The notes under the pieces: generated by a model
What the model was told of the DNA's origin: nothing
What the model saw: only the letters and a program-made list of their open reading frames with translations
Database searches by the model: none
Part shown: positions 3,980 through 20,525 of the stretch, piece after piece
How the letters are laid out: every line of letters starts with the position of its first letter
Numbering within the stretch: position 1 is the stretch's first letter
Translations under genes and position numbers: made by a program
Source: a virus
Virus record (IMG/VR): IMGVR_UViG_3300029319_000418
Location: 1-26,406 of that record
DNA: 26,406 nt
Reading direction: 5' to 3' (one strand)

Positions 3980-4651
3980 TTAAAAAAGAGATATTTGTTC
4001 AAGTTGTTTACTATTCAAATTACTTTTATTTGAAAAATTTATTGGATTTTGAGAAATTCTTTTTTCCCATCTGATTTTATCTGAGGATGATTGCATCTCA
4101 TTTCTTCGTCTTGTGTTCCATCCTTTGCCAATATTTCTTTTTTGACCTCCAACTTCCCATCCACTTGCTTTGTAGATTGTCCCGCTGTGAACACTTGTAT
4201 CTTGATAAGAGATCAACATTGAAATATCTGGAAATCTTTTTTTAATCGTTTTTGTCATTAAAGAAATCATTCTTGTCGCAGTGTTTTTTGGCGCATATTC
4301 GCTTATGGCAAATCTTCTTAGTTCAAGTCTTCCAGTTCCGTTGTAAGCTCTTGCAATTGGGTCGGTCCAAATAGCGGAAGCAAAAAAACAATTTTTAAAA
4401 ATTGCTCCAAAACAGATGCTATGTCCCATATTAGGGTTAGTAATTTTTGGAAGACGTGAATGCCATTTTTCGTTCAACATAACTGCTTCATCAATAGAAA
4501 TTTCTTCGATTTCTAATTGGAGCGGAGACACAGGAATCGAACCTTGACCTTCCACTTGGAACAGTGGTTGTGCTGCCACTACACTATCTCCGCTTAAAAA
4601 ATTGATCGTCTCTGAATTAAGATTAATTTTTTCTGTCTCGTATTTTTCCAT
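3980..4651 (-). CDS. Mom-like GNAT DNA-modification protein
   Basis: This 223-residue protein resembles the Mu Mom family, GNAT-fold enzymes that modify adenine in phage DNA and protect it from host restriction. The core runs from about residue 46: 'EIEEISIDEAVMLNEKWHSR', then 'GHSICFGAIFKNCFFASAIW', 'GRLELRRFAISEYAPKNTAT' and 'LISYQDTSVHSGTIYKASGW'. The ATG at 4651 has a good ribosome-binding site (AAAGGAAA) and is my choice; an in-frame ATG at 4480 is the only later Met that keeps the conserved block, but it would lose the first strand of the fold. Residues about 20-45 are encoded by DNA that also folds as a tRNA-Gly. The gene is more AT-rich than its neighbours, hinting at separate acquisition. 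It starts inside the end of the zinc-ribbon gene (29-base overlap). Confidence 0.65.
   Translation of the reverse strand: MEKYETEKINLNSETINFLSGDSVVAAQPLFQVEGQGSIPVSPLQLEIEEISIDEAVMLNEKWHSRLPKITNPNMGHSICFGAIFKNCFFASAIWTDPIARAYNGTGRLELRRFAISEYAPKNTATRMISLMTKTIKKRFPDISMLISYQDTSVHSGTIYKASGWEVGGQKRNIGKGWNTRRRNEMQSSSDKIRWEKRISQNPINFSNKSNLNSKQLEQISLF
4518..4593 (-). tRNA. tRNA-Gly-like gene (probable anticodon TCC), atypical, inside a CDS
   Basis: The minus strand reads GCGGAGA at 4593-4587 and TCTCCGC at 4528-4522, a perfect 7-bp acceptor. Discriminator T and an encoded CCA (4520-4518) follow. The D-arm is GTGT/GCAC with GG in its loop. The anticodon arm contains TTCCAA, as in tRNA-Gly(TCC), and the T-loop is TTCGATT. 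Two departures are visible: the anticodon loop is 8 bases with a 4-bp stem (or 6 bases with a 5-bp stem), and the T-stem lacks one base relative to a CACAGG/CCTGTG pairing. The whole element lies in the same strand and frame as the Mom-like gene. It may be a functional phage tRNA, a frameshift-suppressor-like tRNA or a decayed one. Confidence 0.6.
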
Positions 4652-5186: not shown

Positions 5187-5303
5187 TTATTTCTTGGAAA
5201 CCGATTTCCGGAGGAAGTCTTTCCAGAGCTTGATCCGGATTTGACGGTTTCGTTTCTGTTTCTGCTCTTGGCAGATCTCAAAGATTTCAGGGTTGATTCT
5301 CAT
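5187..5303 (-). CDS. Possible 38-residue basic ORF
   Basis: This short ORF begins MRINPEIFEICQEQ and is rich in Lys and Arg ('KQKRNRQIRIKLWKDFLRK'). Its ATG lies inside the end of the methyltransferase gene, with GGAG 7 bases upstream. The 5049-5186 stretch below it has no clear gene. A different frame across 5110-5270 also reads like protein but lacks a usual start, so a frameshifted or decayed gene is possible. The call is uncertain. Confidence 0.35.
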   Translation of the reverse strand: MRINPEIFEICQEQKQKRNRQIRIKLWKDFLRKSVSKK

Positions 5304-6135
5304 GTTGTTCTCCGATGAATTGTTCTTCTGCTTCGATCATGGTTCTGATGATCTGGTATGCGACTTGAGGGACGATTGCGTTTCCGAGTCCTTTAAGTCG
5401 GTCCACCCGATTGGGTATCCCATGAGCCACTCGACCCACGTCGGGTTCAGCGAGCCAGAGCCTTCCATCTCTTTGACTTTCGATGTTAGGGTCGGGAAAC
5501 GATTTTGTTTTGGATTCACATTCTTGGCATCGTCGGCTATCGGAGTTGGCAAAAGCGATCGTGCCACTTGAGTTTCTAAGTTTGGAAATTTGTAATTTGC
5601 GGTTTTCATAACGTCTGCTGCTCCACTCATTGCAGCTCCGGCTCTTGGAGTTCCCCACAATCCAGACTCGGTCTCTTCGGTGTCTCGCATCGACGGCCTG
5701 AGCTGGAATAACAAACGACTGGACGGAGTATTCTTCACCTTCCAGATCAGAGATGACTTCGTCGAGACCCATCGTGATGTGACCAGCAACATTTTCACAA
5801 AGCACCCAAACTGGCCTTGATGATCGGATAATTCTGAACATCTCAGGCCAGAGGTGACGGTCGTCTTCTGTTCCTCTGCGCTTCCCAGCTTGGGAGAAAG
5901 GCTGGCACGGGTATCCTCCGGTAATGAGCCAAGGCTGGCGAAATTGAGCTGCTGGGAATGACCGAACGTCTTCGAGTATCCGAATTTCAGGGAAGTTTTT
6001 TCTGAGGACTCGTTGAGCGTATTTTTCGATTTCGCAGAAAGCGACGGTTTCGACTCCTGCCCATCTTGCTGCGAGTGCGAATCCTCCGATTCCTGAGAAG
6101 AGATCGATATGAGTTCGAGTTGTTCCATTGATCAT
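5287..6135 (-). CDS. DNA (cytosine-5) methyltransferase
   Basis: This 282-residue C5-methyltransferase transfers a methyl group from S-adenosylmethionine to cytosine. Motif I is 'DLFSGIGGFALA' (about 11-22). The catalytic Cys lies in 'GGYPCQPFSQAGKRRG' (Cys77), followed by ENV (114-116) and 'QAVDARHRRDRVWIVG' (motif VIII). The final 'RLKGLGNAIVPQVAYQI' is motifs IX-X. The target-recognition region between them is short, so specificity cannot be read. I chose the ATG at 6135 because it overlaps the previous stop (ATGA) and follows TTAGGAAA; a GTG 14 codons earlier is possible. No cognate restriction endonuclease is evident, so it probably protects phage DNA or marks it for regulation. Confidence 0.92.
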   Translation of the reverse strand: MINGTTRTHIDLFSGIGGFALAARWAGVETVAFCEIEKYAQRVLRKNFPEIRILEDVRSFPAAQFRQPWLITGGYPCQPFSQAGKRRGTEDDRHLWPEMFRIIRSSRPVWVLCENVAGHITMGLDEVISDLEGEEYSVQSFVIPAQAVDARHRRDRVWIVGNSKSRSCNEWSSRRYENRKLQISKLRNSSGTIAFANSDSRRCQECESKTKSFPDPNIESQRDGRLWLAEPDVGRVAHGIPNRVDRLKGLGNAIVPQVAYQIIRTMIEAEEQFIGEQHENQP

Positions 6136-6332
6136 TTTCCTAACGTCAGAGGAGTGAGTTCGCACCACTTCTCCCACTGTTCCAAGAATCGCTTCCAGGC
6201 TTTTTCCTCATCCGCTCTCGGAAGCATTCTGAGCTCCGGATGAGATCCTTCGTAATCGGTGTCCGTGTTATCGGGACCGACCCATGAGTTGATCCGTCTG
6301 CTGATTGGATAGTCATCAAACTCAGTTGGCAT
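6132..6332 (-). CDS. Small early protein, unknown function
   Basis: This 66-residue ORF starts MPTEFDDYPISRRINSWVG and ends in a Trp-rich helix ('KAWKRFLEQWEKWCEL'). Its ATG lies 11 bases inside the end of the nuclease gene, and its stop overlaps the methyltransferase ATG as ATGA. This dense overlap on both sides supports it as a translated gene, although no strong ribosome-binding site is visible. No family is recognised. Confidence 0.55.
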   Translation of the reverse strand: MPTEFDDYPISRRINSWVGPDNTDTDYEGSHPELRMLPRADEEKAWKRFLEQWEKWCELTPLTLGK

Positions 6333-16580: not shown

Positions 16581-17088
16581 TATCGTTTTTTGAGTCTCTC
16601 TTTTTTTTCTTTAATCTTGAAGTATGCGACCCATCCTTTGAGCTCTGCCTCGTTCATCTCGAAGATCTCCTCGACGGTTCGATGAAGATGCTCTGCGAGC
16701 TGAAAAAAGAAATAGAGCTCTGGGTCGCTCTCTAGTTTCCCTCAAGCGTATCTGCTTCTACGGCAGAATATTCATTGATTTCACGGACGACTCGGATCAG
16801 AACATCCACGTCGCACTCGTTCATCAATTCTTGTTTGTGAGCATTGTTAAACATCGGAGACCCGTCCTCGTTCAATGCTCGGATGAGCAGAGTCTCGACT
16901 GCTGCTTCAACAAACTTCTGCTGAGTCGAGAGCTTTGCTATTCGTTCCTGAATCCTGGGATTCGTTGCCGATTTGAAGAAGATCCGGAATGGTTTTTTAC
17001 TATCTCCCCATTCCGGAACGTCAATCGATGCTAATCCCCCTGAGAGTTTTTCTCGGTAGTGTCTGGTGATATTATCGATCGCACTCAT
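16580..17088 (-). CDS. Tail assembly chaperone G and its -1 frameshift product GT
   Basis: The zero-frame product (17088-16732, 118 residues, MSAIDNITRHYREKL) is a gpG-like tail chaperone ending at TAG 16734-16732. A -1 shift at GGGAAAC (16741-16735) extends it to 169 residues, ending at TAA 16582-16580. The extension reads LESDPELYFFFQLAEH, then a helix with 'EIFEMNEAELKGWVAYFKI' and a Lys-rich end, the typical T-domain pattern. In lambda, G and GT bind the tape measure and tube proteins during tail assembly, and the ratio matters. The coordinates span both products. Confidence 0.85.
16735..16741 (-). promoter_or_regulatory. -1 ribosomal frameshift heptamer (G GGA AAC)
   Basis: The minus strand reads GAG GGA AAC TAG. 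The heptamer G GGA AAC lies directly before the zero-frame stop and is in the correct phase. Slipping back one base gives GGG AAA CTA GAG and enters the T frame. It has the X XXY YYZ form and closely resembles the GGGAAAG of lambda G/GT. Confidence 0.85.
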
Positions 17089-17509: not shown

Positions 17510-17694
17510 TATTCCTCCTTGGCTTGTGCGGTTGATGATTTATTCTCATCATCCTTCTTGGATTTGGACTGAACCGCTTCGGCCCGTCCTTTTTCGATGA
17601 GAATTCTGGCCGAAAGTCCAGCCACGTCTCCGATCTCTCCTGCTTCGTAAAGCCTGTCAGCGACCGTCGAGTTTCTTAAAAATTTTACTTTCAT
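17509..17694 (-). CDS. Small structural-region protein (DUF7210-like)
   Basis: This 61-residue protein starts MKVKFLRNSTVADRLYEAGE, two likely beta strands followed by 'RILIEKGRAEAVQ' and a charged tail (SKKDDENKSSTAQAKEE). The pattern 'K..fl.......G....L....ARILIEKGRAE' resembles small proteins found in phage head-tail regions. It resembles the 75-residue protein at 19765-19992, which reads 'GRLLIRMGKALP' at the same place. It has a strong ribosome-binding site (AGGAG, 7 bases before the ATG). The function is unknown. Confidence 0.55.
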   Translation of the reverse strand: MKVKFLRNSTVADRLYEAGEIGDVAGLSARILIEKGRAEAVQSKSKKDDENKSSTAQAKEE

Positions 17695-18134
17695 AATGCT
17701 GCTCCTGGATTGTTTTCAGCATGTTGATAGATAACGGTATAGATAAGAGTCACCGATCCGATCTCTTTTTCTCCCTCTCCGGAGATGGAGATGCTGGTCT
17801 CGGATAGATATGAATCTTGAGCAAGGTTGTTCAAACGAATATCTCCCTGCATTGCGATCTCGACCTCCTTGGAGATCGTGTCCAGCGTGTCGTCGACTCC
17901 CGTCGAGCTCGATGCGAATCCCTGAATCGATAGACTGAGAATCTTCTGGACGTTTCTCGGATTCCCCTGAGACTGGATTTCGCTCGTCTCCTCGTTGGTA
18001 TAAAGACAGATCCCTGGAAGAGATGCTCTTTCCAGAGGATAGGTCCGACTCTGGAAGACATTGCTTCCGGTCGTCGATAATCCGGTCAGAGTCGTTGCTG
18101 CTCTCTCTCTGATCTGCTGTCGGAGATGGCTCAA
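17691..18134 (-). CDS. Tail terminator (gpU-like)
   Basis: This 147-residue protein matches the gpU pattern: an N-terminal helix (LRQQIRERAATTLTGL), then 'VFQSRTYPLERASLPGICLY' and a beta-rich remainder ('KEIGSVTLIYTVIYQHAE'). gpU-type proteins form the ring that ends tail-tube growth and joins the tail to the head. The TTG at 18134 is chosen because it overlaps the formyltransferase stop (TTGA) and has AAGAGG about 5 bases upstream; no better ATG exists near it. Confidence 0.75.
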   Translation of the reverse strand: MSHLRQQIRERAATTLTGLSTTGSNVFQSRTYPLERASLPGICLYTNEETSEIQSQGNPRNVQKILSLSIQGFASSSTGVDDTLDTISKEVEIAMQGDIRLNNLAQDSYLSETSISISGEGEKEIGSVTLIYTVIYQHAENNPGAAL

Positions 18135-18783
18135 ATAAACCTCTTTTGCTTTCTAATCCAGAGACGTTCTTCATCTTCGGTCATCTGATGGAACAGAGTT
18201 CCTTTTCCTGCTGGATAGGTTTGGACATTCTTCTCGAGTAGTTCCAGCGACTTCATGAGTGCTCTCGGTTGTCTTGAGATGACTCTCTGGTGAATGTGGT
18301 AAATTTTATCATCCTTATATACCGGAACCTTTTCCTGGTGAATGATCTCTCCTCGGTCGATCTTCTCGTCGATGAAGTGAACGGTGATCCCTTGATCCAG
18401 GTTGTTGAATAAAGCCCATTTGATGTTGTCTAATCCTCTGTTTTCCGGAAGCAGACCTGGATGAATGTTTATGATTCCTGTTTTAAATTTATCAATAATT
18501 TTTTTTTTAAGATCCGAGCTCCTCCGATGATCCCCAGATCTCCGTTATCAATCTCGTCATGCGGTTTCACCTCGTAAGGAATCTCAAATCTCCTGCAAAT
18601 ATCTTTTGAGTGAATTGAATAACAATCCTCTGCGCTCATCTTGACGATGTCTTTTCTCAGTCCGAGATGTCTCAAAGGTGCAGCGATCACTCGATTGACT
18701 TTGTAATTATTGACGATCAGCTCCATCAAGATGTCACTGGTCTTCCGGTGTTCGGTGTCATAGGTCAGCAGACTTATTTCCAT
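18131..18783 (-). CDS. Formyltransferase, split at an A10 tract (-1 frameshift needed)
   Basis: Two frames together encode a 217-residue formyltransferase-like protein. The first (18783-18469) gives 104 residues starting MEISLLTYDTEHRKTSDILM and runs into a wrong-frame stop. The second frame, read from the poly-A tract to TGA 18133-18131, has the family core 'IINIHPGLLPENRGLDNIKW' and 'GITVHFIDEKIDRGEII'. The catalytic set is Asn106, His108 and Asp143. A -1 shift at the A10 run (18508-18499) joins them exactly, giving 654 bases when one A is read twice. The family transfers a formyl group from formyl-tetrahydrofolate, often to amino sugars. The N-terminal half lacks nothing obvious, so either recoding or a sequencing error is possible. 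It sits beside a glycosyltransferase. Confidence 0.75.
18499..18508 (-). promoter_or_regulatory. A10 slippery tract inside the formyltransferase gene
   Basis: On the minus strand the run is TT-AAAAAAAAAA-TT, read in frame as TTA AAA AAA AAA TTA. Eleven or eight A residues, or a -1 ribosomal slip on A AAA AAA, restore the downstream frame. Runs of nine or more A are classic sites of polymerase slippage, but also of sequencing error. Confidence 0.65.
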
Positions 18784-18786
18784 TAA

Positions 18787-19473
18787 TCAGATCCAGTGAC
18801 GTTTGATCCAGTCCCGATCCTGAAGATCAGACTGTTTCGGTCGTCCGTGAAAATAGACGATCGAGCATGACTCTGGATCGATTCCTTGCGGTTCGATCTC
18901 CGCTTTCCATGAGAGGATCTTTCCTGGATGAAGCTCATCGAGTCTCTCTGCTCTGCCGTTCAGATTCTTCCTCAAGAACAACATCTCTGATGGACAGTTT
19001 CCGAGATATCGGATTTCTTCGGTCCAGTAATCTTTCCGAGTGTTCCATTCGTTCCAGAGCTCTGCTGATATTTCCTCGTTAAAAAATGCGACTCCGTTGT
19101 TCAATTGGCTCGGGTTGTATGGGTCCGAGTGAAGAGCGCATTCACCTTCAAAGGATAAGATCTCATCCAGGTTTCCAGTAATAACCGTGTCGAGTGCGAC
19201 GACGAATCTTCTCCCTCCGCACTCAGGTCGGAGAGCATCAAGGATTCCAGTCCATCCGCTTGATGGGTCGAGAAATCGAATCGACTCGATAGGTTCAACA
19301 AATTCATATCCCTTATCGCAGAGACAGATGAACCTGAATTCATCTGAATAATTGCGTTTAATTGATCGATAGAGCTTTTCGACCCACTCCTCCGAGTAAT
19401 ATTTTCGGGAGTATGCTGGAGGAGGATTCTTTGCTTCATTACCGTCAAATAGTGCAGTGATGATCGAGATCAT
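18787..19473 (-). CDS. GT-A-fold glycosyltransferase
   Basis: This 228-residue protein starts MISIITALFDGNEAKNPPPA and has the general GT8/GT-A pattern: 'YSDEFRFICLCDKGYEFVE', an acidic nucleotide-sugar and metal site in 'FVVALDTVITGNLDEI' (about residues 102-117, in place of a strict DxD), 'QLNNGVAFFNEE' (the 'NxGV' strand), and 'SIVYFHGRPKQSDLQDRDWI' near the end. It probably transfers a sugar to a protein or glycan. The ATG overlaps the head-tail joining protein stop (ATGA). It and the formyltransferase lie exactly where gpZ would be expected. The acceptor is unknown. Confidence 0.7.
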   Translation of the reverse strand: MISIITALFDGNEAKNPPPAYSRKYYSEEWVEKLYRSIKRNYSDEFRFICLCDKGYEFVEPIESIRFLDPSSGWTGILDALRPECGGRRFVVALDTVITGNLDEILSFEGECALHSDPYNPSQLNNGVAFFNEEISAELWNEWNTRKDYWTEEIRYLGNCPSEMLFLRKNLNGRAERLDELHPGKILSWKAEIEPQGIDPESCSIVYFHGRPKQSDLQDRDWIKRHWI

Positions 19474-19775
19474 AATCGGAGACGAGCGGTCGTCATTCCT
19501 TCATTGTCAGGTTCAACCGACGTGACCGTGAATGTATCTGATCCGATTGCCAGCGTGTCTCCTTGAGCGATTGCTGAAACGTCGCTTGTTCTCATGATTG
19601 CGACGGGTTCTGAGCTCTCGACCTGCACTGCTGCATCGGGATCGACCCCAACATATTCCCGAGTCAATATCACCGTGATCGTGGAAGCTGACCCTGCCGA
19701 CGTATCGGTGAAGGTTGCCGACGAACCAAAATCTTGGAGGAGATCAAGTCTCAGATCGTCGTCTTCAACTGCCAC
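19470..19775 (-). CDS. Head-tail joining protein (gpFII-like)
   Basis: This 101-residue protein is beta-rich with 'VIMRTSDVSAIAQGDTLAIG'-type strands ('VAIMRTSDVSAIAQGDTLAI' here) and 'TVTSVEPDNEGMTTARLRL' at the end, the pattern of phage head-tail joining proteins of the gpFII type. These seal the portal and connect to the tail. The start is GTG, 11 bases inside the end of the upstream gene. It is followed by the glycosyltransferase and not by gpZ. Confidence 0.7.
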   Translation of the reverse strand: MAVEDDDLRLDLLQDFGSSATFTDTSAGSASTITVILTREYVGVDPDAAVQVESSEPVAIMRTSDVSAIAQGDTLAIGSDTFTVTSVEPDNEGMTTARLRL

Positions 19776-19992
19776 GTTTCACGGTTTTCTTGGTTGTCGA
19801 TTTTTTCAACTCTTGAGATCGATTCTGAGTCCGGATCTCAGGAGGATCTTCTGCTGGTCCCTTTGCTTCATAGGGAAGAGCTTTCCCCATTCGGATCAAG
19901 AGTCTTCCTTCCTCCGGAGAGCAGGAAACGACCTGACCACGTTTGACGGACTTTCCTTCGCAGACTGTCCCTCGAATCATTTCTATTTTCAT
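19765..19992 (-). CDS. Small structural-region protein (DUF7210-like, second copy)
   Basis: This 75-residue protein starts MKIEMIRGTVCEGKSVKRGQ, with 'RGQVVSCSPEEGRLLIRMGK' and a basic C-terminus ('KKSTTKKTVKRGS'). It is similar in design to the 61-residue protein at 17509-17694, so the late operon may hold two distant copies of one small family. The ribosome-binding site (AAAGGAGATATTCAA) is strong. It overlaps the upstream gene by 4 bases. Confidence 0.55.
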   Translation of the reverse strand: MKIEMIRGTVCEGKSVKRGQVVSCSPEEGRLLIRMGKALPYEAKGPAEDPPEIRTQNRSQELKKSTTKKTVKRGS

Positions 19993-20525
19993 TTGAATAT
20001 CTCCTTTAATGGATCTGAGAACGAGACGATCTCGGCCTTATCCTTGACCGCTTCAGCGATTGGAATCCAGTGATCCGCATGATCGTTCTTTGCGTGTCTC
20101 ATCCGTTCTTCTTTTCCTCCAGGGTATTGATGCCAGTAATCGGTGTCATAGTCTCCGTAGCAGTCAGCTCCAGCAAGGAAGACGGGAGAAAACCCCATGT
20201 AAGCTGCGATCCAAACTGAGTGAGCTCCAGAAAATCCAAAATCGGGGCAGATCCCTGCGAAAACATCTCCTTCGAGGAGTTCGTCTTTCTGGTGACTGAC
20301 TCTTCGAGCTGGATGCTTTCTGATTTCTGGGACCGTTCCGACGTGCCTGTCATAGTAATAGATGAACGAAATATCTGGCATCAGTATGCCGTGAATGTTT
20401 ACCGACCAGAGAGCGGACTCGAACCAGGGAGTCCGTCTCAAATCGGATGGAGTCGACGGTCCTCCACAAATGAGGACCGCAGACTTACCACGATAAGCTC
20501 CCTCAAGCTCATCAAGTTGCAGCAT
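19989..20525 (-). CDS. MptE-like / Rossmann-type protein, possible glycosyltransferase
   Basis: This 178-residue protein has 'KSAVLICGGPSTPSDLRRTP' at about residues 14-33, then 'YYYDRH' and 'GFSGAHSVWIAAYMGFSPVF' with 'LAGADCYGDYD'. This is the pattern of the MptE-like (DUF115) and sialyltransferase-like (GT42) proteins that bind a nucleotide or nucleotide sugar. Its role is not known in phages; some homologues lie in glycan loci. It starts on the last base of the capsid stop (TAATG), so it is made from the same message as the capsid. Together with the glycosyltransferase and formyltransferase it may form a surface-modification set, but this is inferred. Confidence 0.5.
   Translation of the reverse strand: MLQLDELEGAYRGKSAVLICGGPSTPSDLRRTPWFESALWSVNIHGILMPDISFIYYYDRHVGTVPEIRKHPARRVSHQKDELLEGDVFAGICPDFGFSGAHSVWIAAYMGFSPVFLAGADCYGDYDTDYWHQYPGGKEERMRHAKNDHADHWIPIAEAVKDKAEIVSFSDPLKEIFK

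Follow-up and report, generated by a model that had tools for sequence, protein, structure and literature searches.

Why would a phage late operon carry a formyltransferase gene whose N-terminal and catalytic halves lie in different reading frames, and does the run of ten A at which they meet serve to join them? The window that we analysed is a 26.4-kb virus record with a minus-strand late operon encoding terminase, portal, protease-fused capsid, head-tail attachment, tail terminator, tail tube, chaperone G/GT, and tape measure proteins. We propose, with a probability of roughly four in five, that the A10 run is a selectively maintained and conserved -1 recoding site needed for the full-length formyltransferase. 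The proposal starts from what the sequences contain: a split and a tract that are both conserved, a -1 frame under selection, and homologues that are intact and have the length expected of the joined protein.

A formyltransferase gene divided at ten A

The first-pass annotation had described two overlapping frames meeting at ten A, and Asn, His, and Asp in place in a joined protein of 217 residues; both descriptions hold. On the minus strand, the zero-frame ORF (18469..18783) encodes the N-terminal half, starting at an ATG at 18783 and running to 18469 for 104 aa (95 aa in relatives), with the ending ...GGARILKKKLLINLKQES*. The A10 tract (18499..18508, minus) is read there in the codons TTA AAA AAA AAA TTA and contains A_AAA_AAA in the -1 phase. 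The -1 frame (18131..18499, minus) supplies the Asn-His-Asp core (INIHPGLLP...DRGEII), running from 18499 and closing with a TGA at 18131, and a -1 shift at A10 gives the joined 217-aa formyltransferase. N106, H108, and D143 do not vary across an alignment that includes distant homologues, and each of them falls 3' of the tract in the -1 part, so the zero-frame product is without catalytic residues.

By itself the A10 run is only mildly unusual, as a first-order Markov model of the window predicts 0.24 A/T runs of at least ten per window. What rises above chance is that the run sits at the frame junction, which codons it is built from, and that four contigs retain it. The tract codons are unusual for this phage (TTA is 6% of Leu and AAA 54% of Lys), and the codon-usage check found the only KKK run made entirely of AAA to be the one in this tract.

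The joined protein matches PF00551 (Formyl_trans_N) at 9e-22, and the zero-frame product alone gives no Pfam match. Among PDB sequences, the best match of the joined protein is PseJ, a sugar N-formyltransferase (6e-17). Identity as PurN or Fmt was rejected, with scores far under the curated NCBIfam equivalog cut-offs (78.8 vs 150.1 bits for PurN and 76.4 vs 201.5 bits for fmt). An intact homologue, L054, stood in for the joined window protein in structure prediction; its model is of low confidence (pLDDT 56), and its 50 best PDB matches are formyltransferase-fold enzymes (best E 5e-9). A genome contig search for close cellular relatives returned only two distant matches. The gene encodes a small N10-formyl-THF-dependent formyltransferase whose most likely substrate is an amino sugar; best-match identity and cassette context suggest the PseJ-like sugar assignment. 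PseJ and other sugar N-formyltransferases (PDB 6ci2/6ci4; WbkC, VioF, ArnA) have PF00551 and the Asn-His-Asp in common with the proposed phage enzyme, but PseJ, WbkC, VioF, and ArnA are not known to be recoded.

Intact homologues show what length the joined protein should have. They come from other phage contigs. L053, L054, and L055 are 61-63% identical to the window protein along its whole length and align to the joined protein without a gap at the junction, where they read GGARIL-SKE/PKE-VIDKY vs GGARIL-KKK-IIDKF in the window. More distant intact homologues are 37-39% identical over nearly full length (L131-L135) or 45% identical over the matched part (L136), and the junction carries no A-run in any of these homologues. 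The first-pass annotation had offered a -1 shift, one added A, or two lost A as routes to an open frame. The first two give exactly the residue count of the intact homologues; the loss of two A, or a +2 shift, leaves one residue fewer and was discarded. The gene directly after the intact homologue in L054 (4648-5370) has no Pfam or PHROG match.

Conservation of the tract and competing explanations

Three further virus contigs carry the gene: L002, L003, and L004 (the same record as L006). The first-pass annotation had called for a comparison with close relatives, and in every close relative found the gene is split in the same phase at exactly A10, making four of four contigs with the window. 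These represent three lineages only, namely the window, L002/L004, and L003. L002 and L004 are 99.8% identical outside N, differing by 11 real mismatches over 5.3 kb; at contig level they share 93-94% identity with the window, and L003 shares 83-84% with it over 1.4 kb. Position at the frame junction, length, and -1 direction are kept in all four contigs and all three lineages, as expected of a slippery tract.

Beyond the tract, the window and L002 differ in the -1 frame by 11 synonymous and 0 nonsynonymous changes (1e-7 under neutrality), and the window and L003 by about 16 changes, 4 of them nonsynonymous (2e-5); counted by codon, the ratio against L003 is 11 synonymous to 4 nonsynonymous. 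This pattern indicates strong purifying selection on the -1 frame 3' of the tract. In L002, L003, and L004 the zero frame meets TAA directly after the tract (AAA AAA AAA); the window has TTA at that codon, which leaves the amino acid of the -1 frame unchanged. No allele has an inactivating change in its catalytic half. Tract conservation and selection on the -1 frame together argue for the earlier reading of the split gene as recoded.

The main rival to a recoding site is phase variation, in which the tract would gain or lose bases at DNA replication, A11 and A8 being ON, A10 being OFF, and the window holding an OFF allele. Genes for enzymes that modify sugars are textbook cases of phase variation. 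The purifying selection is compatible with such a switch too, and a cassette with a glycosyltransferase fits it. A freely changing tract should nevertheless show other lengths across this divergence, and the four contigs of three lineages, a small sample known as consensus sequences only, show no length variation and would all be OFF. The tract of L004 contains no N, though that contig has N at 28 other sites. A parallel is NeuO, a known phage-encoded phase-variable acetyltransferase (PMC13001214) and likewise a cargo enzyme that modifies a surface sugar under an expression switch; the NeuO switch is a DNA-level repeat change, whereas the formyltransferase tract has one fixed length in the four contigs. 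We regard phase variation as disfavoured by A10 in four of four contigs, and as improbable.

Much less probable again is a homopolymer sequencing or assembly error that hides an intact gene. Homopolymers are error-prone, but the same length recurs in four contigs from separate data sets with differing flanking bases, and in 362 kb of related contigs the four A/T runs that reach ten all share this length and no other reaches it. Ten bases is short for present short-read consensus. Intact relatives without the tract, which the first-pass annotation would have taken as a sign of error, occur only at 61-63% identity or below, and such homologues are probably the ancestral form and not a sign of misassembly.

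A pseudogene or recently broken gene has slighter odds still. Genes are often lost through the gain or loss of one base in an A-run, and intact homologues exist, yet both halves are retained across 6-17% contig divergence, no relative has a destroyed half, no allele has a further inactivating change, and the 11 synonymous against 0 nonsynonymous differences speak for a second half under purifying selection. Last, a split enzyme, whose C-terminal half starts separately and pairs with the N-terminal fragment, has a precedent in the two-chain forms of many enzymes and a Shine-Dalgarno-like GGAGGAG upstream, but an internal start was rejected and the idea is barely credible, as no ATG, GTG, or TTG occurs close to where the -1 part begins; the codons available there are limited to ATT/ATA/ATC and a CTG at codon 15, and GGAGGAG is too distant.

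Candidate slippage mechanisms

For the proposed recoding site, we envisage that RNA polymerase adds an extra A in a fraction of late messages, that ribosomes slip -1 on A_AAA_AAA, or both. A minority of products would then be full length and the rest inactive N-terminal fragments of 95-104 aa, so that the enzyme would be made at a low, fixed dose. The two processes are not exclusive. As main contributor, transcriptional slippage has in our estimate slightly better than an even chance; a tract exceeding the seven bases that ribosomes need, and the lack of a detectable downstream structure, plausibly favour it. For ribosomal slippage we would put the chance a little below even, and the A_AAA_AAA phase, GGAGGAG 10 nt upstream, the fixed -1 direction, and the same heptamer at G/GT are plausible points in its favour. 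Also on the transcriptional side, many bacteria show selection against slippage once runs reach nine (PMC1088944), and Chlorobi dnaX genes are split at 10 A (PMC3711429). On the ribosomal side, fixed direction is a criterion used in PMC3711429. Published slippage rates for A tracts of a similar kind lie at 15-25% (tssM A11, PMC4256274).

Candidate stimulators were sought around the tract. The conserved, Shine-Dalgarno-like GGAGGAG (18519..18525, minus) doubles as coding sequence for Gly-Gly-Ala, with GGA being the usual Gly codon of this phage, and its Gly-Gly pair is present in intact homologues as well; the motif may be a codon-usage by-product. No stable RNA structure was found 3' of the tract in comparison with shuffles (z +0.2 to +1.0), and a downstream stem-loop was rejected as a stimulator. 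An 8-bp hairpin just upstream of the tract was also rejected, being imperfect in L002 and not above shuffles (z about -0.8).

The phage group itself offers a point of comparison in the lambda-type tail chaperone G/GT. In the window, the G/GT -1 frameshift site is a GGGAAAC heptamer at the end of G (16735..16741, minus), and across the group the sites are GGGAAAC (the window and close kin), A_AAA_AAC, or A_AAA_AAA, the last in thirteen relatives. Judged by its letters, the heptamer in the formyltransferase tract is one that relatives retain for G/GT frameshifting. Across the 361,735 bp surveyed, which comprise the window with its relatives and two Roseobacter phages, there are only five A/T runs of at least nine: the four A10 tracts, besides which no run reaches ten, and one A9 in L034 (3636-3644), which sits exactly on the G/GT shift site with a zero-frame stop right after it. 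G/GT has the operon and the -1 direction in common with the formyltransferase, and its sites in relatives include A_AAA_AAA and A9, but it serves structural assembly and shifts close to the end of G, whereas the formyltransferase shift lies mid-gene in an enzyme.

Cellular genes provide further parallels. Chlorobi and Thermus thermophilus dnaX have an A9/A10 recoding tract in common with the phage gene (PMC3711429, PMC1088944), and in Chlorobi dnaX is split at the DNA level at 10 A in nine genes, with a zero-frame stop after the shift site as in the phage relatives (PMC3711429, PMC5009743). Unlike the phage enzyme, with its short product devoid of catalytic residues, dnaX encodes a subunit of a cellular DNA polymerase, and its short product is functional. 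Shigella spa13/mxiE and Citrobacter tssM1 (PMC5009743, PMC4256274) have an A or T tract and a minority full-length product, as proposed for the phage, and the spa13 extension overlaps the start of the next gene, as the formyltransferase -1 frame does with the tail terminator. These are secretion-system genes in which slippage is proven by RNA and protein, whereas phage slippage is deduced from sequence.

A probable sugar-modification cassette next to the tail terminator

The formyltransferase shares its cassette with a glycosyltransferase directly upstream (18787..19473, minus; phrog_1962, 2e-34), and the head-tail attachment protein gene (19470..19775, minus; PF05354) forms the upstream border. 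An LpxA-like hexapeptide acyltransferase takes the formyltransferase's slot in two close relatives (L015 3369-3959 and L021 1-813), and more distant relatives have no cassette at that site; because of this replacement and absence, the site has the look of an exchangeable slot for genes that modify sugars. By portal protein, CRP-406, CRP-831, and similar marine Roseobacter phages are the nearest named ones (47-49% identical), and the window has no DNA similarity to named phages. These Roseobacter phages have the same gene order, but their head-tail joining gene adjoins the tail terminator, with no cargo.

Other genes of the window deserve mention. A second cargo gene after the capsid gene (19989..20525, minus) possibly encodes a glycan-modifying protein; its resemblance to sialyltransferase families (phrog_4603, E = 0.0018) and to MptE-like ones is weak. 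At 5287-6177 and 5337-6128 (both minus), two long ORFs overlap in different frames. Each of them has a match to a DNA methyltransferase family (phrog_363 at 1e-78 and phrog_1008 at 2e-27), so that both frames may be coding. A tRNA-like gene (4518-4593, minus; RF00005, 43 bits; two-base anticodon call by ARAGORN) overlaps a Mom-like DNA modification gene (3980-4651), sitting within the 5' portion of its ORF.

On the downstream side, the tail terminator gene (17691..18134, minus) begins with a TTG that overlaps the -1-frame stop of the formyltransferase (TTGA). This start is TTG in all formyltransferase alleles and ATG in the other alleles checked. The overlap makes translational coupling from the formyltransferase to the tail terminator possible, and recoding may be linked to tail-terminator translation in this way. 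More doubtful is the suggestion that one A-tract both keeps a glycan-modifying enzyme scarce and tunes tail-terminator supply through the stop/TTG overlap; if true, a single tract would control how much is made both of an enzyme that modifies host or virion and of a tail component.

Frameshifting in tailed phages has been described mostly for the tail chaperone gene. Of annotated frameshift cases, 2397 of 2476 are tail chaperones (PMC10885494), and no paper on a frameshifted phage formyltransferase was found in the literature searched. Recoding of this type is known already; a cargo enzyme is an unusual gene for it. If the recoding site is real, the frameshift device also doses host- or virion-modifying functions, and each A/T run of at least nine in this phage group would lie at a recoding site, giving a simple search filter. 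Cargo of this sort may be under-counted in viral metagenomes, because gene callers report such an enzyme as truncated or broken.
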